Positions 6,312 to 23,097 of a stretch of 33,009 nt of DNA are shown here, in pieces. Made by a program: the position numbers and the translations under genes. The stretch is from a virus: the IMG/VR virus record IMGVR_UViG_3300042555_001626, positions 1 to 33,009 of that record, one strand, 5' to 3'. The notes below the pieces were generated by a model, which was not told the origin of the DNA, did no database searches, and worked only from the letters and a program-made list of their open reading frames with translations. Position 1 is the first letter of the stretch. Every line of letters starts with the position of its first letter.

Positions 6312-6318
6312 AAATTAT

Positions 6319-6350: not shown

Positions 6351-6372
6351 ATGGTTAAATAGAATTAACTAT

Positions 6373-6984: not shown

Positions 6985-7103
6985 GAAAGTTAGATGAAAA
7001 GGATGCAGAAAAAATTTCATGGGTTATTGTCTTAGTTGCTATATATGTAACGATTTACATGTCATTTATTTTAATGATAATAGACAATTATTTAAGTAAG
7101 TGA
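6981..7103 (+). CDS. Single-pass membrane peptide, 40 residues
   Basis: MRKLDEKDAEKISWV is followed by one hydrophobic helix, about residues 14-35 (WVIVLVAIYVTIYMSFILMI), and a short polar end. The stop TGA overlaps the GTG start of the sigma-like gene (GTGA). A small inner-membrane protein ahead of a sigma-like factor could be a regulator or an exclusion peptide, but nothing in the sequence shows which. Confidence 0.55.
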   Translation: MRKLDEKDAEKISWVIVLVAIYVTIYMSFILMIIDNYLSK

Positions 7104-7684
7104 ACATTAGACTATTAGATTTTGCAAAAAGACACGATGAATGGATTAAGATAGCCGTTTATATTGGTGCAGACCAAGAATTTGCAAAAGAAATAGTTCA
7201 ACAAATGTATTTGAAGTTAGGCGAGATTGAGGTAAAAGAAGGTAGTTTGAATAAACTAATCAATTATGCAGGTGGAATTAATACTGTTTATGTGTTTAAG
7301 GTGATTCAAAGCATATATTTTGGTAATTTTAAAAATAAGGATTTAGCAATATTAGAAGAGATAGAGTACGAGATTCAAGATAGTAATGAAGAGGAGGAAA
7401 TGTATGATATATTGATTAGAAAGATTAAAGTAATTATATCAAGTTTCGATGAATATGAAAGAATGTTACTAGAATTGTATTTTGTACATGATAAAAGTTT
7501 AAGAGATATTCATAAAAGTACAGGCATAGGAGTACACGCAATATTTAACACGATAAAAAATGCAAAACAAAAAATTAAAAGACAAACCGAACAAGAGTAC
7601 AAAAATTACGAAAGTAGTAGAAACGGAAGAAAGACCAGCATTAGGTTTAGGGGATTCAATTGCTCAACTGACGAAGATTACTAA
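7100..7684 (+). CDS. Sigma-70-like RNA polymerase sigma factor
   Basis: The 194-residue product has a region-2-like N-terminus (residues about 12-45, HDEWIKIAVYIGAD then AKEIVQQMYLKLGEI) and a region-4 helix-turn-helix at about 116-161 (FDEYERMLLELYFVHDKSLR, DIHKSTGIGVHAIFNTIKNA, KQKIKR). That is the compact ECF-like sigma layout. It would direct RNA polymerase to phage promoters; the TGTAAC...TTTTAT family before virion genes is the natural candidate target (inference). The start is GTG 7100, overlapping the upstream stop as GTGA. The last 40 residues overlap the next gene in another frame and may be dispensable. Confidence 0.65.
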   Translation: MNIRLLDFAKRHDEWIKIAVYIGADQEFAKEIVQQMYLKLGEIEVKEGSLNKLINYAGGINTVYVFKVIQSIYFGNFKNKDLAILEEIEYEIQDSNEEEEMYDILIRKIKVIISSFDEYERMLLELYFVHDKSLRDIHKSTGIGVHAIFNTIKNAKQKIKRQTEQEYKNYESSRNGRKTSIRFRGFNCSTDEDY

Positions 7685-7997
7685 AATTGATAAACTAGTT
7701 AAGTTTATTGCAGGAGAGGATTGTGGTTGTGATGAACGCAAAGAAAAATTAAACAAACTATTTAGGTATAGTAAGCCTTTGTGTTTGATTGAAGAAGAGT
7801 TTAATTACTTAACGGAATTTCAAAAGAGTCAATCCAATACTTTAAGCAAAGAAGAAGCAGATAAAATAGCAAGTATATGGAATCGTGTATTTCAATCTAG
7901 AAGATTTTATAGACCATGTACATGTGACCCAAAGGCATGGCAAAATATGATTAACGAACTTTTAATGATTTACAAGACATATGAAAGCAACAGTTAG
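7560..7997 (+). CDS. Bacteroidota-phage conserved hypothetical, 145 residues
   Basis: The product has a Lys-rich N-terminus, then ALGLGDSIAQLTKITKIDKL and FIAGEDCGCDERKEKLNKLF (about residues 48-67), and a C-terminal RRFYRPCTCDPKAWQNMIN. GLGD...GEDCGCDERKEKLN is a stretch I associate with small Bacteroidota phage proteins of unknown function. Cys residues in CGC and CTC could bind metal. The only ATG that keeps this block is 7560, which creates a 125-bp overlap with the sigma-like gene. Function unknown. Confidence 0.7.
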   Translation: MQNKKLKDKPNKSTKITKVVETEERPALGLGDSIAQLTKITKIDKLVKFIAGEDCGCDERKEKLNKLFRYSKPLCLIEEEFNYLTEFQKSQSNTLSKEEADKIASIWNRVFQSRRFYRPCTCDPKAWQNMINELLMIYKTYESNS

Positions 7998-8136
7998 TGT
8001 TAGTTATTTGTTTGATTCAACACCAACAAAGAAGGTAGTGTATAGAGTTTGGTATAAAGGATTAATTGTTGGGGAGTACCCAGTAAAAGAACAAGCAGAA
8101 AAGTTAAAAGATAAAATAAATGGAAGTATTAATTAA
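7981..8136 (+). CDS. Small hypothetical protein, 51 residues
   Basis: ATG 7981 opens MKATVSVSYLFDSTPTKK, ending KEQAEKLKDKINGSIN: a likely beta-beta-alpha miniature fold. It overlaps the preceding gene by 17 bp and the ParB-like gene by 17 bp, filling what would otherwise be a gap in a continuous operon. No family recognised. Confidence 0.6.
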   Translation: MKATVSVSYLFDSTPTKKVVYRVWYKGLIVGEYPVKEQAEKLKDKINGSIN

Positions 8137-8797
8137 ATCGATTGATGAAATCAAAGAAAACCCTAATAATCCTAGAAGTATTAGTAAGGGTAAATTTAGA
8201 AAGTTAGTTAATTCTATTAAGGAGTTTCCTAAAATGCTAGATGTAAGACCTTTAGTAATTAATTCAGAAGGATATGTTTTGGGTGGTAATATGAGATTGA
8301 AGGCAATCAAGGAGTTAGGCTTTCAAGAAGTAAAAGTCATAGTTGCAGATGAATTTACTAAAGAACAAGAGAAAGAATTTTTAATTAAAGATAATTTGCC
8401 ATTTGGAGAATGGGACATTGATATGTTGGCAAATGAATATAATCTAGAAGATTTAGTTAATTGGGGATTTAGTGCAAGTGAACTAGCATTAGAAAAGATA
8501 GAAGATATAATTAATGAAACGGAGTATGATGAAGACCCTGTTTATCCTATTTCACCAAAAATTAGTGAGAAGCATGACTATGTTATGATTGTTTGTGATA
8601 ATTCAATTGACTATAATAATTTGTTGACCAAGTTAGGATTGGAGTACAATCAAGATTATAAGTGTCAAAGAGTTGGTATGGGAAGGGTAATTATGTTTGA
8701 TAAATTTAAAAAAATATTCAATGAAGGAAATAGTGAAAGTGGTGATAATGAGCCACAAAAGACCAACAAAGGTAGACACAAGAAAGGTAGTAAGTAA
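8120..8797 (+). CDS. ParB/Srx-like nuclease-fold protein
   Basis: Residues about 1-90 match the ParB/Sulfiredoxin fold: IDEIKENPNNPRSI, then RPLVINSEGYVLGGNMRLKAI with the GGNxRLxA core, then FTKEQEKEFLIKDNLPFGEW. A C-terminal part, HDYVMIVCDNSIDYNNLLTKL and MFDKFKKIF, resembles the region attached to phage ParB-like proteins near DNA modification genes. Stand-alone ParB-like proteins of this kind occur in phage DNA-modification loci and may bind DNA or have nuclease or nucleotide-hydrolysing activity. It lies between the two glycosyltransferase genes; its Lys-rich tail overlaps the second for 77 bp. The partition role of chromosomal ParB is unlikely, as no ParA is present. Confidence 0.8.
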   Translation: MEVLIKSIDEIKENPNNPRSISKGKFRKLVNSIKEFPKMLDVRPLVINSEGYVLGGNMRLKAIKELGFQEVKVIVADEFTKEQEKEFLIKDNLPFGEWDIDMLANEYNLEDLVNWGFSASELALEKIEDIINETEYDEDPVYPISPKISEKHDYVMIVCDNSIDYNNLLTKLGLEYNQDYKCQRVGMGRVIMFDKFKKIFNEGNSESGDNEPQKTNKGRHKKGSK

Positions 8798-9479
8798 TTG
8801 TATTATTAGTGTATCTGAAGAAGAGTACGAAGACTACAAAAAGTTTAACCCTCACAATGAATATCTTGTACACCCTAATGATGTTATAGGACTAACAAGT
8901 AAAATGAAGTGGATACATAAGCAATTAGGCAATTGTATTTTGATGGATGATGATTTAAATGCAATGAATAGATGTTATGTAGACAAAAGTTTCGAAGAAG
9001 GATTCAAGGTTGATGACCCAGATTTAGCATGGGAATTGATACAATCTACTGCCTATGTAGCAAAGCAATTGAATTGTTCAATGTTTGGCTTTAGTAATAC
9101 GGCTAGACCACTTGATTATTCATCATTGAAGCCATATTATTTGACAGGGTTTGCTATTGGTGGTAGTCTAGGTTTTTTTGAAGATTTTCCTATGGATAAA
9201 TTAGATGATGCATGTATATCAGCACAAGATTACTTTTGTAGTGCATTGAGTTCTTATTATAGTAGAAAAACTTTTATCAATAGAAAGTATGCATTTACTA
9301 GTAAAGAGCAAACATTTAAGTCAATTGGAGGAATGTCAGAACATAGAAACACAGATACAGAGAAGGCAGATTATTATTTGTTAAAACAATATTTTGGTAG
9401 TGTTATTGAAAGAAAGAAGCAATCCAATTTGAGAAAGTTGCAGAATCATTATGAAAGAATTTTAAAAATCCCGTTTTAA
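8721..9479 (+). CDS. TET-associated-type (GREB1-like) glycosyltransferase 2
   Basis: I start it at ATG 8721 because MKEIVKVVIMSHKRPTKV restores the first GT-A strand and the S/T-H-x-RP loop seen in glycosyltransferase 1 (FILTHGRP). The metal motif NCILMDDDLNAM (residues 71-82) matches LQLDDDYYYF. Later LTGFAIGGSLGFF, AQDYFCSALSSYYSR (like NEDVNTY) and IGGMSEHRN (like GGMTD) follow the same order. Overall similarity between the two enzymes is low, so they probably use different donors or acceptors. It overlaps the ParB-like gene by 77 bp and touches the methyltransferase gene. Likely role: glycosylating a modified base, or extending the sugar laid down by the first enzyme (inference). Confidence 0.7.
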   Translation: MKEIVKVVIMSHKRPTKVDTRKVVSNCIISVSEEEYEDYKKFNPHNEYLVHPNDVIGLTSKMKWIHKQLGNCILMDDDLNAMNRCYVDKSFEEGFKVDDPDLAWELIQSTAYVAKQLNCSMFGFSNTARPLDYSSLKPYYLTGFAIGGSLGFFEDFPMDKLDDACISAQDYFCSALSSYYSRKTFINRKYAFTSKEQTFKSIGGMSEHRNTDTEKADYYLLKQYFGSVIERKKQSNLRKLQNHYERILKIPF

Positions 9480-10069
9480 TGGAAAAGTTTTATTTAGATA
9501 GTTTAAAAAATAATGATGCCTATTTAATGAATGGGTGGTCAAGTGTAGATATGGCAATCAAAAGGTATTTGTTTGCAGTTCCTTTGTATAACAAATTTTC
9601 AGTAGAAGAATGTCCAATTATATATGATTATGGTTGTGGTACTGCAAATTTCAATGAATATGTCAAGCATAGAAAATATGTAGGTATTGAAGAAATTGAA
9701 GAAATGTACCTTAAAGCAAAAGAAATGTTTCCTAATGTAGAAGTACACCATAAAACACTAGAAGATATGAATATTGGTGTATATGGGTTTAAGTCATTGG
9801 CTATTGCATTAGGTATTTACATGGTAGGAGATAATGATACAAGAGAAGAAGTAATAGAGAAGACTATAAAGCATTGTAAACTTTTATGTGATAGACATTA
9901 TTATGGTTATTTGTTTAATTCTAAGCATGACCATGTAGATTATAAAGAACCACACATGGTATACTATAATTTAAGTGAGTTGATACATAGATTGCAAGAT
10001 GAAGGCTTAAAGGTTACATGTTATTTGTTTGATAAGTATGAGTTTTTTATGCATGTTAAAAAATTCTAA
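9479..10069 (+). CDS. Class I SAM-dependent methyltransferase
   Basis: The 196-residue product has motif I at 49-57 (YDYGCGTAN), the acidic end of strand 2 at YVGIEEIEEMY (67-77), and SLAIALGIYMV in the motif IV region. It lacks the (D/N/S)PP(Y/F) motif of DNA adenine and N4-cytosine methyltransferases and the PC motif of C5-cytosine enzymes, so it is more like small-molecule or sugar methyltransferases. Between a glycosyltransferase and a sugar deacetylase operon, methylation of the attached sugar is a reasonable guess. The start overlaps the upstream stop by one base. Confidence 0.75.
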   Translation: MEKFYLDSLKNNDAYLMNGWSSVDMAIKRYLFAVPLYNKFSVEECPIIYDYGCGTANFNEYVKHRKYVGIEEIEEMYLKAKEMFPNVEVHHKTLEDMNIGVYGFKSLAIALGIYMVGDNDTREEVIEKTIKHCKLLCDRHYYGYLFNSKHDHVDYKEPHMVYYNLSELIHRLQDEGLKVTCYLFDKYEFFMHVKKF

Positions 10070-10077
10070 AAATAAAT

Positions 10078-10110
10078 TTTGTATTTACAAATAAAAATAC
10101 TACCTTTACA
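10078..10110 (+). promoter_or_regulatory. Early promoter P4, leaderless type
   Basis: TTTG at 10078-10081, 19 nt, TACCTTTACA at 10101-10110, then ATG at 10113 only 2 nt later, as in P2. It should drive the operon from the RarA-like gene to terL. Confidence 0.78.
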
Positions 10111-10112
10111 CT

Positions 10113-10724
10113 ATGGATAAGAAGAACACCAAATACGAAATGAGAACGAAGTCAGGACTTGACTTCTATGTAGTAGCATCGGCTTTTCAAAAAGCAGTAA
10201 GAAGATGTGATGTGCAACAAGCAATGTACTTCGGTACGGAATTATTTATTAGTGGCTATGATGAATATGCATGGTCAAGAATAATTATTATGGTATCAGA
10301 AGATATTGGTATTGCAGAACCACAATTACCCTCCCAAATTCATGCATTGTATGAGTTTTACCAATTGTTGAAGAAGAAAAAAAACAAGCATGTTCCAGAA
10401 CGATTGCAATTTATACATGCAATCAATTTAATTGCTAGAAGTCAAAAATCTAGAATGGTTGACAATTATTTAGGTATGTATTTTGACAAGCGTGATTTGT
10501 TAGGTAAGGTTGAGATACCAGACCATGTGTATGATATGCATACAATCAAAGGTAAAATCATGAAGCGTGGCAATGACCACTTCTTTGAACATGCAGCATT
10601 TATCAATAATTGCCCTACACATTTACAAGAAGAGGAGTATATGTTGCGTGACCATATGCAAAAGATATGGAGTGAGAACAACAAACCAAGTGAGGTGAAC
10701 ATTGAGCAAATTGAATTATTTTAA
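10113..10724 (+). CDS. Stand-alone RarA/MgsA C-terminal-domain protein
   Basis: Residues about 20-70 (VVASAFQKAVRRCDVQQAMY, GTELFISGYDEYAWSRIII, SEDIGIAEP) closely follow the C-terminal, tetramer-forming domain of the RarA/MgsA/WRNIP1 AAA+ clamp-loader-like ATPases. The ATPase domain is absent: no Walker motif is present in 203 residues. RarA acts at stalled forks and binds SSB, so this protein might modulate host RarA or be adapted to replicating modified DNA. It heads the operon with the PIG-L and WbqC genes and ends one base into the next start. Family call is firm; role is inference. Confidence 0.72.
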   Translation: MDKKNTKYEMRTKSGLDFYVVASAFQKAVRRCDVQQAMYFGTELFISGYDEYAWSRIIIMVSEDIGIAEPQLPSQIHALYEFYQLLKKKKNKHVPERLQFIHAINLIARSQKSRMVDNYLGMYFDKRDLLGKVEIPDHVYDMHTIKGKIMKRGNDHFFEHAAFINNCPTHLQEEEYMLRDHMQKIWSENNKPSEVNIEQIELF

Positions 10725-11377
10725 TGAGTAAACAAATTATATTAGTAGTAGTTGCCCACCCTGATGATGAAGTATTGGGGTGCGGTGGCTATTTGTTAAA
10801 GAAATCAATTGAAGGTCATGAAACACATGTATTGTACATGAATAATGGCAATACTAGAGTAGGAAACCATAGAAGTGAAATTGAAAACCAAATACAAAAT
10901 GTTGCAAAACGATTAAAGTTTGTTGCCCACATTAAAGATTTTGTCAATAATAAGTTTGACACCTATTCTATAAGCAATATGGCTGATGAGATTAGGCAAT
11001 TAATCAATGAGATAAAGCCAACAATTGTATTGACACATATTAGCAATGATTTGCACCAAGACCATTTGGTTGTAAATCAAGCAGTTATGATTGCAAGTAG
11101 ATTTATGCCTAAGAGTTCTGTCAAAATGGTTATGACCTTTCCAACTATTAGTAGTAGTGAAGTAAACCCTAGTTTTGATTTCAGAGCAGATGCATTGTGT
11201 GATATTTCTGATTATATAAAAGAAAAGATAGATGCAATGGATGAATATGTATATGAACAAAATGCATTTAGTGAATTGAGAGGTAAAGAAGGCATAGAAG
11301 GTTGGGGAAGGTTTTATGGTATGCAAATCAATGTACCTTTTGCTGAAGGCTTTAGAATAGAAAGGATTGTCATATGA
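10724..11377 (+). CDS. PIG-L/LmbE-family zinc de-N-acetylase
   Basis: The AHPDDEVLGCGG signature at residues 11-22 supplies His12 and Asp15, and HQDH at 111-114 supplies the third zinc ligand; 217 residues is a usual family length. Members remove an acetyl group from N-acetylglucosamine in glycolipids or small thiols, exposing an amine. No signal peptide is present, so it works in the cytoplasm. In the same operon as a WbqC-like protein and near two glycosyltransferases, it probably deacetylates a GlcNAc-type sugar on phage DNA or on a nucleotide-sugar precursor (inference). The stop overlaps the WbqC start as ATGA. Confidence 0.87.
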   Translation: MSKQIILVVVAHPDDEVLGCGGYLLKKSIEGHETHVLYMNNGNTRVGNHRSEIENQIQNVAKRLKFVAHIKDFVNNKFDTYSISNMADEIRQLINEIKPTIVLTHISNDLHQDHLVVNQAVMIASRFMPKSSVKMVMTFPTISSSEVNPSFDFRADALCDISDYIKEKIDAMDEYVYEQNAFSELRGKEGIEGWGRFYGMQINVPFAEGFRIERIVI

Positions 11378-12075
11378 TTAGTTGCATGATAAGTCAGCCG
11401 AGGTATTTGCCTAGTATTACATATTTACATAGAATTGCATATGTAGATACCTTAGTAGCATACGATGATGTTCAAAGAGTAGCAAGAGACATAGAGAACA
11501 GGAATAAACTTGTCACACCTAATGGCAAACATCAGATGATAACGATTAGTATATGTTCTGGCAAGAGGGAATTGATTAAGAATAGTATGCTATGTAGTCA
11601 TGATGATTACGATAGACATGCAGAAACAGTTAAGCATTTCTATAAAAATAATTTGGTGTTTTATGACCAAGATATTGTAGATGGTTATTATAATGCTTTA
11701 AAATCTAGTATGCATATGAGGGATAGTTTTGTAGCAGGACTCCAATACCTTATAGACTTGTTTGAAATGGACACCAAAGTAGTTCTGTCAAGTTCCTTAG
11801 AGTACGAAAAAGTAGGAGGAGCAGAACAAATAGTTAAGATATGTAATGCAGTAAATGCAGATAAGTATATTAGTGGTAGAGGAGGAGTAAACTATGGAGT
11901 AACTAAAGAATTTTGTGAAAGTCATGGAATAACATTGTATGAGTATTACAATCATGTACACCCAGAAGTTGGTTTTTTTTACCAAATATTCAATGATGGC
12001 TTTGATAAATGGTATAATGTATTCAAAGAAAGTAGAATTGAAGTGTATAATAAATTAGACAAAGTAAACATATAA
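11374..12075 (+). CDS. WbqC-like family protein
   Basis: The 233-residue product opens MISCMISQPRYLPSITYLHR and continues with DTLVAYDDVQRVARDIENRN, the N-terminal signature of WbqC-like proteins, then the C-terminal SSSLEYEKVGGAEQIVKICN and DKYISGRGGVNYG. The family occurs in O-antigen and other sugar-decoration clusters, where it is thought to help modify amino sugars; its reaction is not settled to my knowledge. Translational coupling (ATGA) to the PIG-L deacetylase fits a two-step scheme in which a freed amine is then acylated or otherwise capped. That scheme is inference. Confidence 0.82.
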   Translation: MISCMISQPRYLPSITYLHRIAYVDTLVAYDDVQRVARDIENRNKLVTPNGKHQMITISICSGKRELIKNSMLCSHDDYDRHAETVKHFYKNNLVFYDQDIVDGYYNALKSSMHMRDSFVAGLQYLIDLFEMDTKVVLSSSLEYEKVGGAEQIVKICNAVNADKYISGRGGVNYGVTKEFCESHGITLYEYYNHVHPEVGFFYQIFNDGFDKWYNVFKESRIEVYNKLDKVNI

Positions 12076-12081
12076 AAAAAG

Positions 12082-12231
12082 ATGAAGACAAATAAGTACA
12101 GTAAACTAGACACAAATACTATTGACTATTGTCAAAGTGTAGGTGTAAATCCATTGAAGTTTAGTATGTGGATTCAGTATATTAAGAATCAGAATCAGAA
12201 AATATATTTTGATAAATTAAAAAAGTTATAG
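12082..12231 (+). CDS. Small hypothetical protein, 49 residues
   Basis: ATG 12082, six bp after the WbqC stop, gives MKTNKYSKLDTNTIDYCQSV and ends YFDKLKKL. Basic and helical, with SMWIQYIKNQNQK in the middle. No motif recognised. It fills the space before the HNH gene. Confidence 0.5.
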   Translation: MKTNKYSKLDTNTIDYCQSVGVNPLKFSMWIQYIKNQNQKIYFDKLKKL

Positions 12232-12234
12232 TTA

Positions 12235-12279
12235 TGGAAGATGAATACGATTTTTGGTATAACGAATTAGATTGGTAAT
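12235..12279 (+). CDS. Possible 14-residue acidic micropeptide or leader
   Basis: ATG 12235 to TAA 12279 would encode MEDEYDFWYNELDW. Its stop overlaps the HNH start codon (TAATG), so it might couple translation of the HNH gene rather than act as a protein. Too short to support on composition. Confidence 0.25.
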
Positions 12280-12532
12280 GAAACCGCATGTAAAAATATA
12301 TCTTGATTATTTTAAGTACGACTTGTATGACTTTATTCCTTGTGAGGTATGTGAATCTAGAGCAGTAGATATTCACCATATTGAAGCAAGAGGAATGGGA
12401 GGTACTAAGAAAAAGGATGAAATTGAAAACCTTATGGGATTATGTAGAGAGTGCCATGTTAAGTACGGAGATATATCGGAGTTAAAGGATTTTTTAAAGA
12501 AGATTCACAATTTAAGAATGGATGTTAAATGA
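12278..12532 (+). CDS. HNH endonuclease of the packaging module
   Basis: The 84-residue product has CEVC (residues 22-25), the HNH core DIHHIEARGMGG (31-42), Asn51 in ENLMGLC and CRECH (56-60). The two Cys pairs hold a structural zinc; the His residues and Asn form the beta-beta-alpha metal site that cuts DNA. Small HNH proteins next to terminase genes assist DNA cleavage during packaging in several HK97-type phages. It overlaps terS by 4 bp. The start is ATG 12278, which overlaps a short upstream frame; a TTG 6 bp earlier adds only two residues. Confidence 0.85.
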   Translation: MKPHVKIYLDYFKYDLYDFIPCEVCESRAVDIHHIEARGMGGTKKKDEIENLMGLCRECHVKYGDISELKDFLKKIHNLRMDVK

Positions 12533-12909
12533 AAAAGGCATTAGAAAAAAGCATAGAGGCTAGAATAGAGAAACGAGAAAACAATAAAATAGATTTCCTA
12601 GAAGCCTTAGAAAAATCGGCAGGTAATATTAGCATTGCTTGTAAGCAAATCAATGTAGGTCGTAGTACATTTTACAAATGGATGGAAGACCAAGACTTTG
12701 CATTAGCAGTGAAACATATTGAAGAGTCGATGATTGACCTAGCAGAAACTGCTTTATACAAGCAAATAAGAGAAGGAAATACTTCGGCTATTATATTCTA
12801 CCTAAAGTGCAAGGGTAAGAAAAGGGGATACGCAGAAAAACTTGAAATAGGCACAGAGGATGACAATCGTATTAAAATTGAAATCGTAGATGTTCGTACT
12901 CCAAACTAA
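12529..12909 (+). CDS. terS: Terminase small subunit (TerS)
   Basis: The 126-residue product has a charged N-terminus and a helix-turn-helix at about 33-52 (NISIACKQINVGRSTFYKWM), followed by DQDFALAVKHIEESMIDLAE and NTSAIIFYLKCKGKKRGYAE. This is the usual small-terminase plan: DNA-binding HTH, helical oligomerisation part, C-terminal tail. It should recognise phage DNA and present it to TerL. The HNH gene overlaps its start and terL overlaps its last 20 bp, the expected order. Assigned by the HTH, the NTSAIIFYLKCKGKKRGY block and its neighbours. Confidence 0.85.
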   Translation: MKKALEKSIEARIEKRENNKIDFLEALEKSAGNISIACKQINVGRSTFYKWMEDQDFALAVKHIEESMIDLAETALYKQIREGNTSAIIFYLKCKGKKRGYAEKLEIGTEDDNRIKIEIVDVRTPN

Positions 12910-14050
12910 TGTTGTATTTAGGCATTTAGTAAATAGTCAAAAGAAAATCATTGTAGAGCAAGGTGGTACTAGAAGTGGTAAAACCTATAATATATTGATG
13001 TGGTTAATCTTTGACTATTGTATGAATAACAAAGGCAAGATTGTATCTATAGTTAGAAAAACCTTTCCTGCAGTTAGGGCATCAGTAATGAGGGATTTCT
13101 TTGAGATATTGTCTAAGTGTAACATGTATAGTGAGGAGTTTCACAACAAGAGTCAGTTTGAATATTATTTGAATGGCAATACGATTGAGTTTATGTCCGT
13201 TGACCAACCACAAAAAGTAAGAGGTCGGAAGCGTAATATATTGTTTATCAATGAAGCAAACGAATTAGACCTAGAAGATTGGAGGCAATTGCTATTGAGG
13301 ACCACCGAAAAGGTGATATTGGATTTTAACCCTAGTGATGAGTTTCATTGGATTTACGATGAGGTATTAATTCGTGAAGATGTTGAATTTTACCAAACGA
13401 CCTATAAAGACAATCCCTTTTTGGAACAAGTAGTTATTGATGAGATTGAAAGGTTAAAAACTATTGATGAAAATTATTGGAGGGTTTATGGTCTAGGAGA
13501 GAGAGGTCAAAATAGAAGTACAGTATTCCAATTTATTATAGCAGATATACCAGAAACGGCTAAGTTAAAATCATATGGATTGGACTTTGGCTTTAGTGCA
13601 GACCCTTCAAGTCTAGTAGCGTTTTATATAGATGGAGATACTATATACTTCGATGAATTAATTTATCAGACAGGTATGACAAACATAGATATAGGTAATG
13701 CAATAAAAAGTATTGGTATAGATAGAAGAGATGTTATATGGGCGGATAGTGCAGAGCCGAAGAGTATACATGAATTGTATCAGTTTGGTTATAATGTTAA
13801 AGGAACTGTTAAAGGTTCGGATAGTATAAATGTTGGTATTGATATGATGAGAAGGTATACTATTGCCTTGACCAAGAGAAGCCTCAATTTAATTAAAGAG
13901 TTTCGTAATTATAAATACATAGAAGATAAGATGGGTAGGCTAACTAATAAGCCAGTAGATGCTTTTAACCATGGTATTGATGCATGTAGGTATGCCGTTT
14001 ACAATACTATGTCTAGACCAAATTTAGGCAGGTATTCAATACGAGGCTAG
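12890..14050 (+). CDS. terL: Terminase large subunit (TerL), ATPase and nuclease
   Basis: The 386-residue product is a short Terminase_3-type (PBSX-like) motor. The Walker A loop is GGTRSGKT (25-32); Walker B is ILFINEA with the catalytic Glu122; a coupling-type stretch KVILDFNPSD lies at 141-150. The RNase-H-like nuclease has YGLDFGFSADPS (Asp232), IWADSAEP (Asp286) and DAFNHGIDACRY (Asp364). It pumps DNA into the capsid through the portal and cuts it. It starts inside terS. Length is at the short end for TerL but all motifs are intact. Transcription probably comes from P4. Confidence 0.95.
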   Translation: MFVLQTNVVFRHLVNSQKKIIVEQGGTRSGKTYNILMWLIFDYCMNNKGKIVSIVRKTFPAVRASVMRDFFEILSKCNMYSEEFHNKSQFEYYLNGNTIEFMSVDQPQKVRGRKRNILFINEANELDLEDWRQLLLRTTEKVILDFNPSDEFHWIYDEVLIREDVEFYQTTYKDNPFLEQVVIDEIERLKTIDENYWRVYGLGERGQNRSTVFQFIIADIPETAKLKSYGLDFGFSADPSSLVAFYIDGDTIYFDELIYQTGMTNIDIGNAIKSIGIDRRDVIWADSAEPKSIHELYQFGYNVKGTVKGSDSINVGIDMMRRYTIALTKRSLNLIKEFRNYKYIEDKMGRLTNKPVDAFNHGIDACRYAVYNTMSRPNLGRYSIRG

Positions 14051-14092
14051 TCTGTCATAATTCAGTCATAAAAAAAATTTATGTAAAAATAT

Positions 14093-14125
14093 TTTGTATT
14101 TACAAAACTAAATTGTATCTTTACA
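14093..14125 (+). promoter_or_regulatory. Early promoter P5
   Basis: TTTG at 14093-14096, 19 nt, TATCTTTAC at 14116-14124, then ATGGTAATTAAGAATACAAA, closely like P1 and P3. The ATG of the next gene is at 14148. The gap 14051-14147 also carries a GTCATAA direct repeat (14053 and 14065) but no clear terminator. Confidence 0.8.
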
Positions 14126-14147
14126 TGGTAATTAAGAATACAAATAT

Positions 14148-14471
14148 ATGAAGAACACAATTTCAACATCGCAAGAACTTGTAGGCAAGTTCATTAACAG
14201 GTACTTATGGACAGACATTCAACCAATTGGTAAGATTGTTGGCATTAAGTCTAAGACTACAGTCTTTGTTCAAAAGGTAGTAGCAAGTGAGAACAAAGTA
14301 AAGATGGAGTTTATTCCAGGAGGTTTCTCGGTTCATTGTACAAATGATTCTAGTCAAGAGTATGATTTTATTGAGACAAATGAAATCATGGAGATTAGAT
14401 TAAGTAAGCAATACTTGAAGTCTCATGGTATTGATGAAAGACCTCGCAATTATTACGATTATAATTTTTAA
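14148..14471 (+). CDS. Hypothetical protein of the anti-restriction cassette, 107 residues
   Basis: First gene behind P5. The product reads MKNTISTSQELVGKFINRYL, then IGKIVGIKSKTTVFVQKVVA and MEFIPGGFSVHCTNDSS, ending RPRNYYDYNF: beta-rich, no membrane segment. The GKIVGIKSKTTVFVQKV stretch reads like a small SH3-type barrel. I do not recognise a family. Placement in an early-type operon with ArdA makes a counter-defence role worth testing. Confidence 0.7.
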   Translation: MKNTISTSQELVGKFINRYLWTDIQPIGKIVGIKSKTTVFVQKVVASENKVKMEFIPGGFSVHCTNDSSQEYDFIETNEIMEIRLSKQYLKSHGIDERPRNYYDYNF

Positions 14472-14474
14472 GCA

Positions 14475-14573
14475 ATGCAAAGAGTAAAGAATATAATCAT
14501 TAACACGATGAACGCTTTGTTTATCCTAGCATTTATAATTGGTTTATTAGTAAGTATATTAGAAAGAATATGA
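14475..14573 (+). CDS. Single-pass membrane peptide, 32 residues
   Basis: ATG 14475 encodes MQRVKNIIINTMNALFILAF and ends SILERI, one hydrophobic helix from about residue 7 to 29. The stop overlaps the ArdA start (ATGA), so the two are probably co-translated. Function unknown; tiny membrane proteins in such cassettes can be exclusion factors, but nothing here shows that. Confidence 0.5.
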   Translation: MQRVKNIIINTMNALFILAFIIGLLVSILERI

Positions 14574-15085
14574 AAGTACAAATTTATGTTGGCACATATG
14601 CCAAATACAACAACGGAAGTATAGAAGGTAAATGGATAGATGTTACCGATTTATCAAAAGAAGAGTTTGAGCAAATATGTAAAGAATTGCATAATGATGA
14701 AGAAGACCCAGAGTATATGTTTCAAGATTGGGAATGTCCTAGATACCTAGATAATTTTATTGGTGAAAGTGGTATCATGGATAAATTTTGGGATATCAAA
14801 GAAGAGGGCAATGGATTAAGTGATGATGATTTGGAGGCATTCTCAATATTTGTAGACCATGGACACCCCGCAGATTTAAGAAAGTTTAGAGATGCATATA
14901 AAGGGCATACTAATTCGTTCAATATTGAAAGAGATTTTGGTTATGAAATAGCAGAAGAAATGGGTTACATTGACCAAATGCCAGAATCGATTAGGTATTA
15001 CTTTGATGCAGAAGCATTCGGAAGAGATTTACTTATGACAGACTTTTGGGAAGAAGATGGTCACATATTTTATAGTTTTTATTAA
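14570..15085 (+). CDS. ardA: ArdA anti-restriction protein (DNA mimic)
   Basis: The N-terminus VQIYVGTYAKYNNGSIEGKW, followed by IDVTDLSKEEFEQICKEL, is the hallmark of ArdA, as in ORF18 of Tn916. The rest is rich in Asp/Glu (HNDEEDPEYMFQDWECPR, EEGNGLSDDDLEAFSIF, EIAEEMGYID), and 171 residues is the normal length. ArdA folds into an elongated dimer whose acidic surface imitates B-form DNA and blocks type I restriction-modification enzymes. It lies between host-type promoters, so it should be made as soon as DNA enters, although its neighbours are late genes. Confidence 0.92.
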   Translation: MKVQIYVGTYAKYNNGSIEGKWIDVTDLSKEEFEQICKELHNDEEDPEYMFQDWECPRYLDNFIGESGIMDKFWDIKEEGNGLSDDDLEAFSIFVDHGHPADLRKFRDAYKGHTNSFNIERDFGYEIAEEMGYIDQMPESIRYYFDAEAFGRDLLMTDFWEEDGHIFYSFY

Positions 15086-15094
15086 GTAATAAAT

Positions 15095-15126
15095 TTTGTA
15101 GAATCAAAAAAATTAAGTACCTTTAC
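15095..15126 (+). promoter_or_regulatory. Early promoter P6, leaderless type
   Basis: TTTG at 15095-15098, 19 nt, TACCTTTAC at 15118-15126. The ATG at 15127 overlaps the promoter end at the same place as the untranslated ATGGT of P1, P3 and P5, so the in-frame ATG at 15136 is the likelier start. Confidence 0.75.
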
Positions 15127-15135
15127 ATGAATAAT

Positions 15136-15411
15136 ATGAAAAAGAACACAAACCCTAAGTACGAAGAAATGGAGTATGAACTTCAAGATGACATTAATGG
15201 ATTGAAGTTATTTTATGCTCATGATTTTAAAGATGCCCCTCAAGAAATTGATGATGAAGCAAAATGGATTATTGGTAGTATTGAAGAAGACCTATTGGAG
15301 ATTAGTTATAATTCTAATGGTCCAGATGACTATTATAGATTAGCATTTAGTTTCGTTGAAAAAACTTGGGAAAGAATGAATAGTTTGTTTGAAACATTCT
15401 ATGAAGAATAG
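15136..15411 (+). CDS. Very acidic 91-residue protein next to ArdA
   Basis: I choose ATG 15136 because the -7 box of P6 ends at 15125. The product has about 23 Asp/Glu against 9 Lys/Arg: YEEMEYELQDDINGLKLF, APQEIDDEAKWIIGSIEEDL, SFVEKTWERM, FETFYEE. It has no membrane segment or catalytic motif. A small, very acidic protein under an early promoter beside ArdA could be another DNA mimic or a nuclease inhibitor; that is inference from charge and context. A terminator follows 31 bp later. Confidence 0.72.
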   Translation: MKKNTNPKYEEMEYELQDDINGLKLFYAHDFKDAPQEIDDEAKWIIGSIEEDLLEISYNSNGPDDYYRLAFSFVEKTWERMNSLFETFYEE

Positions 15412-15442
15412 TATATTTGTGTAGTTTAGTGATGAGCAATCT

Positions 15443-15465
15443 AGGAGGTGAAAGCCTCCTTTTTT
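15443..15465 (+). terminator. Terminator closing the anti-restriction cassette
   Basis: Stem AGGAGG (15443-15448) and CCTCCT (15455-15460) with a TGAAAG loop, then a U-tract to 15465. Its T-run leads directly into the TGTAAC box of late promoter L1. Confidence 0.88.
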
Positions 15466-15466
15466 G

Positions 15467-15496
15467 TGTAACAAAGCAAAAGATTTAAGTTTTATA
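15467..15496 (+). promoter_or_regulatory. Late promoter L1 (TGTAAC / GTTTTATA)
   Basis: TGTAACAAAG at 15467 and GTTTTATA at 15489-15496, with the ATG at 15500: the TGTAAC-to-ATG distance is 33 nt, as in L2-L5. It heads the tail operon. Confidence 0.68.
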
Positions 15497-15499
15497 TAT

Positions 15500-16222
15500 A
15501 TGGAGAAAACCATCATAGTCCCAACCTCGTTAAAAGATATAACCCTATATCAGTATTTGGAGTATGAAAAATTGCCTGATACATTGGATGAATTTAGTAG
15601 AGCAATTCAAACCATTAGTATTTTTTGTAATGTGACTACAAACGAAATAAGAAAGTATCCTTACAAAGTAGTCGAAGACATATTATCTAGTATTCAAAAA
15701 GCATTGTCCGAAGATTGTCCCTTTGAAAGAGTATTTGAATTTGAAGGCAAAAGGTATGGATTTGTACCAAATCTAGATGAAATGAGTACGGCTGAGTTTG
15801 TTGATATTGATAATTACCAAAGAGATAGAGATAACTTGTATAAGGTAATGTCCGTATTGTATAGGCCAATATATCAAGAGGAAGGTAAAACCTATGATAT
15901 TGTCACATATGATGGTAAAATCAATGAAAGTTTTAGAGAATTGCCAATGACCTATGTAAAAAATGCCATTGTTTTTTTTTGCAATTTAGGAATAGACTTG
16001 TTGAATTATATAAAGAAGTCTTTAGTGGAGGAGAAGCCGAAGGACTCAGTAATGCTGGAGTTACAGCGTTTGGCAAAAAATGGGGATGGTATGGATTCCT
16101 TTATGGTTTATGTGGAGGAGACATACTCAAGATTGATGAAGTGGTACGCCTCCCTATACACAAAACATTATTGTGGCAGAGTTACATACTTGACCTACAG
16201 GAAGTTCAGAAATCAGAATTAA
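15500..16222 (+). CDS. Tail assembly chaperone, unshifted product
   Basis: ATG 15500 is set by L1; the frame is open upstream but that part overlaps the terminator. The 240-residue zero-frame product has MEKTIIVPTSLKDITLYQYL, FERVFEFEGKRYGFVPNLDE and AIVFFCNLGIDLLNYIKK. Position between terminase and tape measure, with a shifty T-run near the C-terminal third, matches the gpG/gpGT tail-chaperone system, which holds tape measure and tail tube proteins before assembly. A domain-level match is not visible by eye; the frameshift and gene order carry the call. Confidence 0.6.
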   Translation: MEKTIIVPTSLKDITLYQYLEYEKLPDTLDEFSRAIQTISIFCNVTTNEIRKYPYKVVEDILSSIQKALSEDCPFERVFEFEGKRYGFVPNLDEMSTAEFVDIDNYQRDRDNLYKVMSVLYRPIYQEEGKTYDIVTYDGKINESFRELPMTYVKNAIVFFCNLGIDLLNYIKKSLVEEKPKDSVMLELQRLAKNGDGMDSFMVYVEETYSRLMKWYASLYTKHYCGRVTYLTYRKFRNQN

Positions 16223-16245
16223 ACAAAATAAATGGAAAGAGATAA
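15500..16245 (+). CDS. Tail assembly chaperone, -1 frameshift product
   Basis: A run of nine T at 15972-15980 is read as GTT TTT TTT TGC in frame zero. A slip of -1 on T-TTT-TTT (15973-15979) continues as TTG CAA TTT AGG and reads to a stop at 16243-16245, giving 248 residues. The -1 frame from 15979 encodes a convincing domain: LQFRNRLVELYKEVF, AFGKKWGWYGFLYGLCGGDI, HKTLLWQSYILDLQE. That FGKKWGWY...GDI pattern is familiar from Bacteroidota phage tail genes. The frame has no good start of its own, which supports expression by frameshift. Confidence 0.65.
15972..15980 (+). promoter_or_regulatory. Programmed -1 ribosomal frameshift site
   Basis: Nine consecutive T in the chaperone gene provide a T-TTT-TTT slippery heptamer in the right phase. 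I see no strong stem or pseudoknot downstream by eye. A single-base length error in this homopolymer is the alternative and would fuse the frames without a slip. Confidence 0.6.
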
Positions 16246-16726
16246 AAACCATATAGGCACAGTTATAAATTATTTCAAGGATGTTGCTACTCATATGGGG
16301 GCTAGATTTAGTCATGGCAATATTACCGAAATGAATTTTAGAAGTGCCTTAGTATATCCGTATATTCATATAAATATTGGTCAAGTAAGTGTTACTAATC
16401 AAGTAGTTTCGTTTAGTATAAACTTGTTAGTAGCAGATAGAGTTAATACAATTACTACAGAAAACCAAGGATTGAATGAGCAATTGCTTTATGATGAAAT
16501 AGGTTATACGGAGAACAATAACTATGCAATGGTTTTGCAACAATTGTATGTTGACCTTGTAATTTCATTAAGGAAGTATGAAGAGCTGTACTATAATTCG
16601 TTGGAAATTCTAAAGCCATATAATTTGACTCCATTTGAGGAAAAGTATGATGATGTATTAGCAGGTTATACATGTACAATCAATATTGAAGTTGTTTCAC
16701 CAATTGTAACCGATGGATTTTGCTAA
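16232..16726 (+). CDS. Head-tail or tail completion protein, 164 residues
   Basis: The product reads MERDKNHIGTVINYFKDVAT, SALVYPYIHINIGQVSV, VVSFSINLLVADRVN, ENQGLNEQLLYDEIGYTENN and ends INIEVVSPIVTDGFC. An N-terminal helix, then beta strands with VYPY and NLLVADR, resembles small proteins encoded between tail chaperone and tail tip genes in Bacteroidota phages, probably tail terminator or completion proteins. It overlaps the frameshifted product by 14 bp and the next gene by 14 bp. Confidence 0.6.
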   Translation: MERDKNHIGTVINYFKDVATHMGARFSHGNITEMNFRSALVYPYIHINIGQVSVTNQVVSFSINLLVADRVNTITTENQGLNEQLLYDEIGYTENNNYAMVLQQLYVDLVISLRKYEELYYNSLEILKPYNLTPFEEKYDDVLAGYTCTINIEVVSPIVTDGFC

Positions 16727-17261
16727 TACAAATAAAGTATTGAGAAACATGGCGGTGTTTCAAGCAAACCAAATGAGAATTAATTTGGGTGCTAAAGTAA
16801 CTCGTAAAGTGTATAGGTCTCAATGGCAAAATGGTAATCCTAAAAATGTTACTGTTAAAACAATAAGAGCAAACCATATTGCTAGTGGTCAATTGGTCAA
16901 TAGCATAAAACCAACCTATGAAAATGGGGAATTTGGTGTTTCTATGTTAGATTATGGGTTTAATGTAAATGATGGGAGAGACAAAGGCAAAGGTATACCA
17001 CCTGATGTTATGCTTAATTGGACTAGTGTTAAAGGTATTAGGCCTAGAAATTTAATAAATGGTCAATTTATAAAAAATACTATGAACAATCGTAAAGCCA
17101 TGGCATTTTGTATGAATAGAAAGATTAAGTTTTTTGGTATTGAAGCATTTCCTTTTATTGATATGAGTGTTGATGTAACTGAGGAGAAATTCGAAAATGA
17201 TTTAAATGATGCATTAGAGAATGATGTATATGATTATGTAAAAAAAATATTTAAAGAGTAA
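16713..17261 (+). CDS. HK97 gp10-like tail/neck completion protein
   Basis: The 182-residue product has an N-terminal helical part, ASGQLVNSIKPTYENGEFGV around residues 52-71, LDYGFNVNDGRDKGKGIPPD (74-98), and a C-terminal AFCMNRKIKFFGIEAFPFID. The order 'S-G-x-L-x-x-S-I, then Y/D-G, then GRD-KGKGIP, then RKI...GIE..PF' is typical of HK97-gp10-like proteins, which sit at the head-tail joint and help finish the tail. It is flanked by overlapping tail genes. Confidence 0.65.
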   Translation: MDFANTNKVLRNMAVFQANQMRINLGAKVTRKVYRSQWQNGNPKNVTVKTIRANHIASGQLVNSIKPTYENGEFGVSMLDYGFNVNDGRDKGKGIPPDVMLNWTSVKGIRPRNLINGQFIKNTMNNRKAMAFCMNRKIKFFGIEAFPFIDMSVDVTEEKFENDLNDALENDVYDYVKKIFKE

Positions 17262-18370
17262 TGCCAACAAGTATAATAGTTCAGCCTAGTAGTATAAAAG
17301 GTGCATATAGTTCAATGTTGTATCAGGCTTATGATACCTCATATGCTAGTTCAGGGTTTTATTACCAATATAAAGTATATGTATGGAGTGGTACAACAGC
17401 AATACCTGCCACACCGATTGCAACAATTCAAAGATTGCCCGATGTATATGCTAGTAATAGAAGTTTCATAGATATAAGTAAGATTGTTACACAATATATC
17501 CAAACGGAATGGTTCACAATAGGTGCAAGTAACCCTACAATTAGTTTAGGTTCTGTATATGCATGTGTAAAAGTACAAGGTATATGGAGTGGAGGGTCTA
17601 GTGTTGAGATAACTAGTAATGTTATATTAGCGACTAAAGGCTATGAATACACTTTAGATGGATTTAACCAAGCAACTAGTAAGAGAGTATTAACGGATAG
17701 AAGTACATTATATTTGACTACCGATACAGCATATGATTATTTATGGTATGATGCAACTAAGATAACAAGTATAAACATTGGTGCAACAGTAGTTACTCCT
17801 AGTGCAGTTACAAATAGTAGTAACTATATACAAAGTATTGAGTTAAGGTCTAGACTAACTACTGCAGGATTATGGGGGCAAAATTGTGATATTGTTTTTA
17901 ACTATAGTGGTGGTAGTCAAACTATTAATGTAGTATTTGATTGTGTAAACAAGTATGGATGTCTTTCTTTATTTTATAAAAATAGATATGGAGTAATAGA
18001 ATGTCTAAGTATGAATGCTTTAAGTAAAGTTGCAATGACAACTACTAAAGAGAACTTTTACAAAGGAGTTTATGCTCAAGCAAATATGGCAGATGCATGG
18101 TCTTATGGGGTTAGAGTTAATTCGTTGTATAACATACAAGGCGTATATAAATTATTAGCGAATACAAATTGGATTACAGAGTCTTATGTAAATATCGTTC
18201 AACAAATACTTTTGAGTGATGTATGCTATGCTATATACGATTCTAAGACTTATGCTTGTCAGATAAGTGATTCGTCAATGGATAAGAAAACTTACAAGAA
18301 TGATAAGTTAATTATGTACACCATGAATTTTGAATTTGCTCAACCTTTAATCAATAGCATAGTAAGATAA
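17261..18370 (+). CDS. Structural tail protein, 369 residues (distal tail-like)
   Basis: A beta-rich product with few charges: SIIVQPSSIKGAYSSMLYQA, QRLPDVYASNRSFIDISKIV, ILATKGYEYTLDGFNQ, and a C-terminal MYTMNFEFAQPLINSI. PDVYASNRSFIDIS and ATKGYEYTLDGFN are stretches I associate with Bacteroidota phage tail proteins that precede the large tail-tip gene. It shares single-base overlaps with both neighbours. A distal tail or baseplate component is the best guess; the family has no better name that I know. Confidence 0.6.
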   Translation: MPTSIIVQPSSIKGAYSSMLYQAYDTSYASSGFYYQYKVYVWSGTTAIPATPIATIQRLPDVYASNRSFIDISKIVTQYIQTEWFTIGASNPTISLGSVYACVKVQGIWSGGSSVEITSNVILATKGYEYTLDGFNQATSKRVLTDRSTLYLTTDTAYDYLWYDATKITSINIGATVVTPSAVTNSSNYIQSIELRSRLTTAGLWGQNCDIVFNYSGGSQTINVVFDCVNKYGCLSLFYKNRYGVIECLSMNALSKVAMTTTKENFYKGVYAQANMADAWSYGVRVNSLYNIQGVYKLLANTNWITESYVNIVQQILLSDVCYAIYDSKTYACQISDSSMDKKTYKNDKLIMYTMNFEFAQPLINSIVR

Positions 18371-21036
18371 TGACCTATTTTAGTATAATTATAGATGGAT
18401 ATCTTGTAGACTTGTATGAAGATGAAAGTGTACAATTAAATAGACAGATTAAAGACTATTCTAAGATAGATACAGTATTTACAGACTTTTCGCAAAATTT
18501 TACGATACCAGCAACGGACAATAATAACGCTATATTTCAAAATTTTTTTGATGAGAATGTTTTGTTACAATCATGGAATCAAAATTATGCATTGAGTTCG
18601 CAAATATTTATTCATGGCTTACCTGTATTTAATGGGAAAGTTGAATTGCTTGAAGTCAAGTTTACTGATGGTTTGCCAAGTAGTTATAATATTGTATTTT
18701 ATGGTCAAGGTAAAAATGTTCTAGTTGAATGGGGTGATAAGACATTACCTGAAATAGATTGGAGTTCTTATGACCACATGATGATGACTTCATTAGCATT
18801 ATCATCTTGGTATGGAGGTTTGTTAGGTGGTTCAATTGTATGGGATTTAAAAGATTATGGTTTAGGCTATAATTGGAGTACGGCAAATGTTACCAATAAT
18901 ATAAGAAAAGCAAATACAATCAATTGGCAAGACCTTAGACCTAGTATTTTGCTTAAAGATATGATTACAAACATATTTGTTAGTGAAGGATTTACTCTAG
19001 GAGGCTCTTTGCTTAGTAGAAGTGAGTTTACTAATTTGTATGTCACGCCAATGAATGTTGCTGGTCCGTATCGTAATAATATAACAGGCACATTGTATGG
19101 TAATTTTGTTGCAGATAATGGTGGTTTATTGTATAATATATTTAGACCTACTAATACACAAGCAACTTGGTTCACATTGCCCGTTGGTTCTAATATTGTT
19201 TCGGGGAATACTAGTGGTGCATGGAGTACAACTAATTATGAATACACATGCCCAGAAAATGGGGATTACCAATTTGAAATCGATATTATAAGTTATAATC
19301 CATTGCCGACAACTTTTACGCCTAGATTAAGTATTAAAGCCGTTGTCAATAATAAAGTATATGGATATTTTAGAGCAGGCGATAGTGCTTATTGGGCAGG
19401 TAGTGGTCCAGAAAGTTTTCTTATTAAGAATCTAAATAAAGGTGATATTGTTAAATTGATTTACAATACACCTATAAATGCAACAGTAAATGGTACTTTT
19501 AGTTGTACATGGTCACCACCTACATATCAAGTATATGTAGTAATGGCTAATGTAATGCCTGAGATAAAAGTTAGTGAATTTTTTGAATCGGTGTTACAAA
19601 CCTTTAATGCAGTCTTAGTACCAACAGGATTAAATTCATTTGAGTTACATAATATAGATGATTGGTATGCTAGTGGTCAAAATGTAGAATACACAGAGTT
19701 TATAAATTTCAAATCGTTGACTCACAAAAAGATGCCTATTGCTAATTTTGTTTCTATGGAACATGAAAAAGGAGAAACAATAGCACAAACATTTTTTGCT
19801 AATACATACAAGAGAGAGTTTGGTAGTGTGACTTTTAAACCTGATGTTGATTTTGCTGATGAGCCAATTGAGTTTAAGACAAAATTCCAAATTAACCCAG
19901 TAACTATTTTAAGAAAGGTTAACCAAAATGGAATTGTACTAGGAGACACAGATTTGGAAATCCCTTTCCTAATTGATAAAGAAGGCAAAGCAATTCAACA
20001 AAAGTTGAGTTTGTTCTATTTTTGTGGAGTTGTACCATGTTCTTATCAATGGTATTTTGGTGGCATTGCATTGAATACTTATCCAAAGAGTAGTACATTT
20101 AGTGCTAATGTAAGTGGAGGCTATAGTTTAGGTTTTGGTTTGGAGAACAATAGATTTGGTGATATGCCTGCAAATACTTTGTATTTCAATTTTTGGAATA
20201 AGTATATAAGTAGATTGTATTCAACTAGAAGTCGTATTGTTATAGTTGATGCAGTATTACCTGTAGGAGTTTGGTTAAATATGAAACTAAACGATAATGT
20301 TGCTATAAGTGGTAATTATTACAAGATTCAAAAAATCCAATATGATTTACTTAGTCAACAAGCAGTTATCGAATTGATAACCTACCCTAATGTGAATATA
20401 TTGCAAGTTACAAGCACTTCAGGTAACAAGCCTACATTCAATACTATAGTTGGAACTGATGGTGGTAAGACCTTTATAGATGGTAATCCTATTAAGAAAG
20501 GTATTGGTAATGCTATTTTACAAGGTGGGATATTTGCAACGGATTCGGTTGACCCAATTAACATGAATAATTCGTTGACCTATGAATTGATTAGTGTAAG
20601 AGACAATTATATACCAACGCTTAGTTTAAATAAAGTTAGTGTATGGTGGTATAATTTGCAGCCATGGAGTTTAACCCCAGTACCTGCTCCAATTTATTTA
20701 GGAGAATCAGGATTTGAAGGTGATAGTTCATATTATACTATAGACTTTTTGAATAGTCAAGTTACAATCAATAGTACAGGTCAATATCGTTTTATAGGTG
20801 CAATTACAGTAGATGTTCCTGCAAGTCATTGGTTAGCATTATATATAAGTATAGATGATATTGAAACTGAAGCCTATCAAGAGGTTAATGGTAATCAAGT
20901 GCATAGTGTATCATTGTATGGTAGTGCAACCATAGGAGAAGGTTCTAATGTACAGATTCGTGCAAATACATTAGATGGTGGGACACATGTTGTAGATTTT
21001 TTAAGAAGTTCGTTAATAGTTGAAAGAATAATATGA
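18370..21036 (+). CDS. Large tail-tip/baseplate protein, 888 residues
   Basis: The N-terminus IDGYLVDLYEDESVQLNRQI, followed by TVFTDFSQNFTIPATDNNNA and FFDENV, is typical of the big tail-tip protein of Bacteroidota siphophages. The middle includes FSGQ-like strands (YNIVFYGQGKNVLVEWGDK) and a hub-like part ending near KLNDNVAISGNYYKIQKIQY (about residue 640). The C-terminal third (NILQVTSTSGNKPT onward) is Gly/Ser/Asn-rich and beta-sandwich-like, ending in TFLRSS-type carbohydrate-binding-like strands. It should form the tail tip that contacts the host surface. It ends with an ATGA overlap into a small gene. Confidence 0.7.
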   Translation: MTYFSIIIDGYLVDLYEDESVQLNRQIKDYSKIDTVFTDFSQNFTIPATDNNNAIFQNFFDENVLLQSWNQNYALSSQIFIHGLPVFNGKVELLEVKFTDGLPSSYNIVFYGQGKNVLVEWGDKTLPEIDWSSYDHMMMTSLALSSWYGGLLGGSIVWDLKDYGLGYNWSTANVTNNIRKANTINWQDLRPSILLKDMITNIFVSEGFTLGGSLLSRSEFTNLYVTPMNVAGPYRNNITGTLYGNFVADNGGLLYNIFRPTNTQATWFTLPVGSNIVSGNTSGAWSTTNYEYTCPENGDYQFEIDIISYNPLPTTFTPRLSIKAVVNNKVYGYFRAGDSAYWAGSGPESFLIKNLNKGDIVKLIYNTPINATVNGTFSCTWSPPTYQVYVVMANVMPEIKVSEFFESVLQTFNAVLVPTGLNSFELHNIDDWYASGQNVEYTEFINFKSLTHKKMPIANFVSMEHEKGETIAQTFFANTYKREFGSVTFKPDVDFADEPIEFKTKFQINPVTILRKVNQNGIVLGDTDLEIPFLIDKEGKAIQQKLSLFYFCGVVPCSYQWYFGGIALNTYPKSSTFSANVSGGYSLGFGLENNRFGDMPANTLYFNFWNKYISRLYSTRSRIVIVDAVLPVGVWLNMKLNDNVAISGNYYKIQKIQYDLLSQQAVIELITYPNVNILQVTSTSGNKPTFNTIVGTDGGKTFIDGNPIKKGIGNAILQGGIFATDSVDPINMNNSLTYELISVRDNYIPTLSLNKVSVWWYNLQPWSLTPVPAPIYLGESGFEGDSSYYTIDFLNSQVTINSTGQYRFIGAITVDVPASHWLALYISIDDIETEAYQEVNGNQVHSVSLYGSATIGEGSNVQIRANTLDGGTHVVDFLRSSLIVERII

Positions 21037-21203
21037 TAAATGAAATTATAAGATTAGTACAATCGAATGATTGGGTATTGGTATCAGAAAATGTAGAGAT
21101 TGCTAAAGGCAAGTATAAAATCAAAACTAGAAAAGAGAGGGTTCAGTATAAATTAAAAAGAGGGTTTATAAAATTATGTCTAAGGAAGTTAAAGTTAATT
21201 TAA
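21033..21203 (+). CDS. Small basic protein, 56 residues
   Basis: ATG 21033 overlaps the previous stop (ATGA) and encodes MINEIIRLVQSNDWVLVSEN, then EIAKGKYKIKTRKERVQYKL and RGFIKLCLRKLKLI. It overlaps the tape measure start by 28 bp. Very Lys/Arg-rich at its C-terminus. No family recognised; the position before the tape measure might suit a small tail assembly factor. Confidence 0.5.
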   Translation: MINEIIRLVQSNDWVLVSENVEIAKGKYKIKTRKERVQYKLKRGFIKLCLRKLKLI

Positions 21204-23094: not shown

Positions 23095-23097
23095 AGT

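Follow-up and report, generated by a model that had tools for sequence, protein, structure and literature searches.

A probable exchangeable accessory-gene slot with an ArdA-family gene at the boundary of two predicted transcription programmes in an uncultured tailed phage

Phage morons are self-contained units that bring their own promoter and terminator, lie between conserved genes, and are present or absent across related phages (Juhala 2000 and Cumby 2012, as cited in PMC7067206). Plasmid leading regions contain anti-defence islands in which ardA is placed under promoters acting upon entry, in that case single-stranded Frpo promoters (PMC11541004). In the antiviral hotspots of P2 and P4 phages, cargo is swapped at a fixed site between conserved flanks (PMC9122126), and in archaeal viruses a common early promoter flags variable small genes, which has served gene discovery through regulatory sequences (PMC11065993). 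A further point of reference is the ArdA family itself (PF07275), represented by Tn916 ORF18 (PDB 2w82). A literature search combining ArdA, phage, and Bacteroidota found no paper.

The locus described here resembles each of these systems in part. It is located in a 33,009-base virus record (IMG/VR IMGVR_UViG_3300042555_001626, positions 1 to 33,009), which is referred to as the window; a search of annotated phages by DNA similarity gave no match. The interval between terL and a tail-assembly-chaperone-type gene is read, with good confidence, as an exchangeable, moron-like early accessory module at the boundary of two predicted transcription programmes, with ArdA aboard. Unlike a moron, the slot holds from 0 to about 10 genes, often together with two or three repeated host-type promoters, and it appears to be situated where host-sigma and phage-sigma transcription meet. 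It differs from the plasmid islands in its double-stranded host-sigma promoters and in having one recognised anti-defence gene only, and from the P2 and P4 hotspots in its site, its phage group, its host-type promoters, and its small cargo without recognisable anti-phage systems. The archaeal-virus case is set apart by the presumed Bacteroidota host of the phages considered here, the Bacteroidota -33/-7 promoter, and the fixed genomic slot. Atypical base composition compared with the surrounding genes is often cited for morons, although it is not a strict requirement. In this respect the locus also departs from morons, as the cassette has a GC content of 0.312 compared with 0.318 for the window, which places it in the 35th percentile of equal windows and is not atypical.

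The left conserved flank of the slot is terL (12890..14050, on the + strand like all features below; PF04466 E 2e-23, PHROG terminase). It is followed by the host-type promoter P5 (TTTG-N19-TATCTTTACATG, 14093..14127), the gene of the 107-residue phage accessory protein p107 (14148..14471), and, directly 3' of the latter, an ORF for the 32-residue single-span membrane peptide p32 (14475..14573). Full-length ardA (14570..15085) comes next, and then a second host-type promoter, P6 (TTTG-N19-TACCTTTACATG, 15095..15129); both promoters follow the published consensus except in the last base of the -7 element. The cassette is completed by the gene of the acidic orphan protein p91 (15136..15411) and an intrinsic hairpin terminator (15443..15460). 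p91 has 91 residues, or 94 if the ATG at 15127 is used, which abuts the -7 element of P6. Every element named in the sequence-only reading is present where that reading had placed it, and its view of a cassette equipped with host-type promoters and a terminator of its own agrees with the P5 and P6 motifs and the hairpin. The right conserved flank is the tail-assembly-chaperone-type gene (15500..16222), which is conserved in 47 loci. Inside this gene a run of nine T (15972-15980) marks the start of an overlapping ORF in the -1 frame (15979-16245), the arrangement to be expected if the gene, like other tail-assembly chaperones, uses a programmed frameshift; relatives retain this second ORF.

For comparison, 80 viral contigs with a terL 63-76% identical to that of the window were fetched. 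The terL-to-chaperone distance is 0.9-3.3 kb in 46 relatives and the window, together 47 loci. These intervals contain 235 small ORFs, which fall into 99 clusters including 63 singletons; the counts depend on a basic ORF picker set to a minimum of 30 residues. The slot is a site of small, rapidly exchanged genes. Not all of its members turn over fast, since clusters C9, C10, and C11 are stable within one lineage, the L048-L077 group. Named domains in the cargo of the relatives are a C5-methylase fragment, RadC-JAB, PAPS reductase, and SET, and most cargo is without a Pfam match. A 148-residue RadC-JAB protein is the second cargo gene in L002, L003, L004, L005, L007, and L008, identified by domain scan in L002 and by cluster in the others; a PAPS-reductase-like gene is also present in the slot of L003. 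PADLOC matches of the cargo (SspD-like, methyltransferases) were not accepted as defence systems and were taken as domain matches only.

In 19 further loci the slot is empty, with a profile-confirmed chaperone orthologue 32-60 nt past the terL stop. The empty loci form one clade (support 100/100) among occupied clades and therefore point to one gain or loss event, not many. Swapped cassettes, which the sequence-only reading had suggested looking for in related phages, are thus found, both as this empty-slot clade and as near-identical phages with different cargo; the four window genes are not fixed in all relatives. The same loci bear on the idea that the interval consists of fast-evolving head-completion or packaging genes of morphogenesis. 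Such genes would suit a site between terL and the tail genes, and certain clusters reappear towards the end of many loci, C1 in 16 of them. The window cargo, however, matched none of the recurring clusters by profile, ArdA is not structural, and the 19 relatives with an empty interval still have the terminase and chaperone genes on either side of it. ArdA and the empty clade led to the rejection of a structural role as highly improbable.

ArdA proteins are type I anti-restriction DNA mimics, and by its profile match the 171-residue protein of the window is a full-length member of this family. It reaches E 2e-28 and 100.3 bits against PF07275 (curated cut-off 27 bits), covering profile positions 1-150 of 155, and its residues 3-165 align to Tn916 ArdA (2w82; E 9e-11, 45 bits over 163 residues). 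The strong negative charge of the family is also present, with a net charge of -26 over 171 residues and a pI of 4.2 computed from the sequence. The protein differs from Tn916 ArdA in being distant in sequence and in being carried by a phage, not by a conjugative element. It is likely to be anti-type-I-restriction cargo. PF07275 was found in 1 of 49 records, the window alone, and ArdA is absent from the slot of all 46 relatives; these are metagenomic fragments, for which absence from the slot is strong evidence and absence elsewhere in the record weak. Six ArdA relatives in other phages occur without a close homologue of the terL or tail genes of the window, L086 having a weak terL match.

p107 belongs to PHROG 19789 (PHROG_19789 E 9e-9), a family with an invariant KMEF..GGF...C motif and a C-terminal YD[YF]NF; in the window the conserved parts read KMEFIPGGFSAHC...YDYNF. 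A tiny single-span membrane ORF is located directly 3' of the p107 gene or its homologue in the window (14148-14573), L009 (7239-7689), and L099 (821-1422), and also in L100. Homologues of p107 were found in 14 viral contigs that have no terminase or tail gene in common with the window, and in L009, the only one among the slot relatives. p107 and the tiny membrane ORF are possibly a functional pair. The structural model of p107 is weak (pLDDT 75), and a PDB fold search with it returned nothing. p91 gave no family match in profile searches and no viral homologue. Its AF2 single-sequence model (pLDDT 92) predicts four helices, and a fold search against PDB and BFVD returned nothing below E 0.4. 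No function is drawn from this fold because four-helix bundles weakly match many things. p91 has a net charge of -14.

One possible, if doubtful, reading of these genes is a dedicated counter-defence island, in which all four, and most slot genes in relatives, would act against separate defences of the host shortly after entry. It is favoured by the known anti-restriction nature of ArdA, by an acidity of p91 that per residue equals that of ArdA, by the methyltransferase fragment and the RadC-JAB proteins in the slots of relatives, and by the published use of early regulatory sequences as a predictor of anti-defence genes in archaeal viruses (PMC11065993). Conversely, profile searches matched p107, p32, and p91 to no known anti-defence family, p107 homologues occur in unrelated phages, PAPS reductase and the SET domain are not clearly counter-defence, and the cargo is not generally acidic (median net charge -0.01 per residue). 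The profile searches thus recognised ArdA alone, not several clustered anti-defence genes, and the designation of the cassette as an anti-restriction island, justified as far as ArdA is concerned, proves overstated, given that ArdA is its sole recognised anti-restriction gene and that the cargo of other phages is mixed. A general moron slot with host-takeover, superinfection-exclusion, DNA-modification, and anti-restriction genes, ArdA being one of them, is fairly likely. This is indicated by the mixed cargo domains, the membrane peptide p32, the orphan status of most cargo genes, and a promoter and terminator of its own, as in published accessory (moron) loci (PMC7067206). It differs only in emphasis from the preferred reading of an exchangeable early module.

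P5 and P6 are members of a promoter family, TTTG-N19-TANNTTTA, which is found at 1029, 2708, 6319, 10078, 14093, and 15095 (P1 to P6), always on the + strand. The motif TTTG-N19-TATCTTTA of P5 spans 14093-14123, and TTTG-N19-TACCTTTA of P6 spans 15095-15125. A stricter, longer pattern that ends in ACATG, TTTG-N17..23-TANNTTTACATG, was counted four times in the window compared with 0.03 expected from shuffles. The consensus of the Bacteroidota primary sigma factor consists of TTTG at -33 and TAnnTTTG at -7, the last G of which is nearly invariant (PMC7366714, PMC6847099). TTTG and TAnnTTT at 19-nt spacing are present in all six window sites, and the last -7 base is A in all six. By motif, the window promoters are therefore of host type apart from one consistent departure, the A that replaces the final G of the -7 element; the full TTTG at -7 is present in the promoters of many relatives. 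The regions of P3, P4, and P5 share 79-80% identity over 53-84 bases. A Bacteroidota host is inferred from two observations, the type of promoter and the occurrence of terL relatives in assemblies of Bacteroidales and Chitinophagaceae; these relatives are distant (mostly 48-52%) and might be mis-binned viral contigs.

Host-type promoters are also concentrated in the slots of the relatives. The terL-to-chaperone intervals of the 46 relatives contain 46 strict promoters compared with 3.1 expected, and terL plus all downstream DNA of the same relatives contains four. At least one strict promoter is present in the slot of 29 of the 46, and none in the other 17. After dereplication, 27 were counted in 48.8 kb of slot intervals (4.2 expected), 0 in 42 kb of terS-terL, four in 85 kb downstream of the slot (2.6 expected), and 13 in 118 kb of upstream DNA (4.4 expected). 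In 32 of 47 loci, compared with 2.3 expected, the first 170 nt past the terL stop contain a relaxed promoter.

Close pairs of relatives indicate how cargo may be exchanged. The sequences of L015 and L031 agree to 99.7% through terL and to 98.3% from the final two cargo genes on, yet their promoter-proximal cargo differs; the left break lies at the promoter. L021 and L023 differ by a slot change, to the left and right of which their identity is 98.8% and 92.4%; L023 is without the first two L021 cargo genes and has one promoter left. The left side of this promoter (7150-7240) is identical to the first L021 promoter (3392-3500), and the right side to the second (4110-4200). Recombination between promoter repeats is the simplest reading of this chimera. 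In the L035/L037 and L036/L042 pairs the difference is a short insertion that contains no promoter, and promoter recombination is therefore not the sole route.

The cassette terminator (z = -3.6 when folded) has counterparts in the relatives. A hairpin, usually with a T-tail, was seen about 40-55 nt 5' of the chaperone gene in most of 25 inspected loci, the tail being unclear in a few relatives. A strict terminator finder reported it in 10 of 47 loci but misses imperfect stems, and the frequency is hence given as most of those inspected. In the window, a pattern scan of the + strand between P4 (10078) and 15443 found no terminator.

A late-type promoter, TGTAACAA-N14-GTTTTATA (15467..15496), begins 6 nt past the cassette terminator and ends 3 nt 5' of the chaperone ATG. 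Followed by N3-ATG, as TGTAACAA-N14-GTTTTATA-N3-ATG, it occurs exactly three times in the window (15467-15500, 23972-24005, and 26261-26294) and in none of 100 shuffles, a figure that on its own is circular because the motif was read from those same sites. The terminator-then-promoter arrangement is also found at 26261. L001 contains the full motif once. With a one-base looser form allowed, the L009 record (G008) has it three times, at 12310, 20752, and 23044, the offsets of -3157, -3220, and -3217 from the window indicating collinearity; the reversed-pattern control gave none in this record. A GTTWTA-type motif precedes the chaperone gene in 41 of 47 loci compared with 4.8 expected, and the remainder have near variants. 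A scan of viral contigs with TTTTGTATTTACAAA proved unspecific and was discarded.

The likely reader of the late-type promoters is encoded at 7100..7684. The encoded protein matches the sigma-factor profiles TIGR02937 (E 9e-8; 31.9 bits, curated cut-off 42.9) and NF058625 (E 1e-8) below the curated cut-offs, and is therefore called ECF-like only; homologues in G005, G006, and G008 score above the cut-off. Such a gene is present in 27 of 31 records, and from this co-occurrence the late motif is probably read by the phage ECF-like sigma factor. An unlikely alternative is that GTTTTATA is a translation-initiation feature of Bacteroidota messengers and not part of a promoter. Its position 3 nt from the ATG would agree with this, as would the use of upstream nucleotide identities instead of Shine-Dalgarno sequences in Bacteroidota (PMC6847099). 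A ribosome signal would, however, have no need of the fixed 14-nt pairing with TGTAACAA, seen at the three window sites, in L001, and in L009, and the empty reversed-pattern control and the co-occurring sigma gene likewise favour a promoter.

The two promoter types occupy separate parts of the window. All six host-type promoters are located within 1029-15125 and all three late-type promoters within 15467-26290, and the cassette therefore forms the 3' end of the host-promoter (early) half. Its earlier description as embedded in the late region is not upheld, as host-type promoters occupy 1-15,130 and late-type promoters 15,467-26,290. No late motif precedes terS and terL in the window, and P4 may be the promoter from which they are transcribed. 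The early half also contains two glycosyltransferase-like genes, a PIG-L deacetylase gene, and a WbqC-like gene (5475-6311, 8697-9479, 10724-11377, and 11374-12075), for which a role in DNA or surface sugar modification is possible.

In the proposed mechanism, host RNA polymerase carrying the primary sigma factor of Bacteroidota would read P5 and P6, and read-in from upstream host-type promoters is also possible. ArdA would then be produced as soon as infection begins and would block host type I restriction by DNA mimicry. Activity of P5 and P6 might also extend over the whole infection instead of being confined to its early phase. Transcription of the cassette would halt at the terminator at 15443-15460, and the tail operon would restart at TGTAACAA-N14-GTTTTATA, probably via the ECF-like sigma factor made early. 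With this promoter just past the terminator, the tail genes would be transcribed despite the latter. p107, p32, and p91 are regarded as putative accessory genes with a possible counter-defence role, and recombination, both at the conserved flanks and inside the promoter repeats, would swap the cargo.

A broader proposal can be put forward tentatively. In a large uncultured group of tailed phages of Bacteroidota, the slot may serve as the general site for early-expressed cargo directed against the host, situated exactly where transcription passes from the host sigma factor to an ECF-type sigma factor of the phage. Its host-type promoters would double as recombination handles, and most of its roughly hundred orphan families would be new counter-defence proteins. 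For this phage group, the analysis provides a rule by which the stretch from terL to the tail chaperone gene yields a small, fast-exchanged gene set apparently driven by host-type promoters. The chimeric L023 promoter suggests a route by which such genes are swapped, and the early and late promoter motifs, together with the phage sigma factor, constitute a directly testable model of a transcription switch. Related phages hold other genes in the same slot, which makes it a good place to seek new means of anti-defence, and the roughly hundred cargo clusters, most of them without known function, provide a list for counter-defence screens in Bacteroidota.
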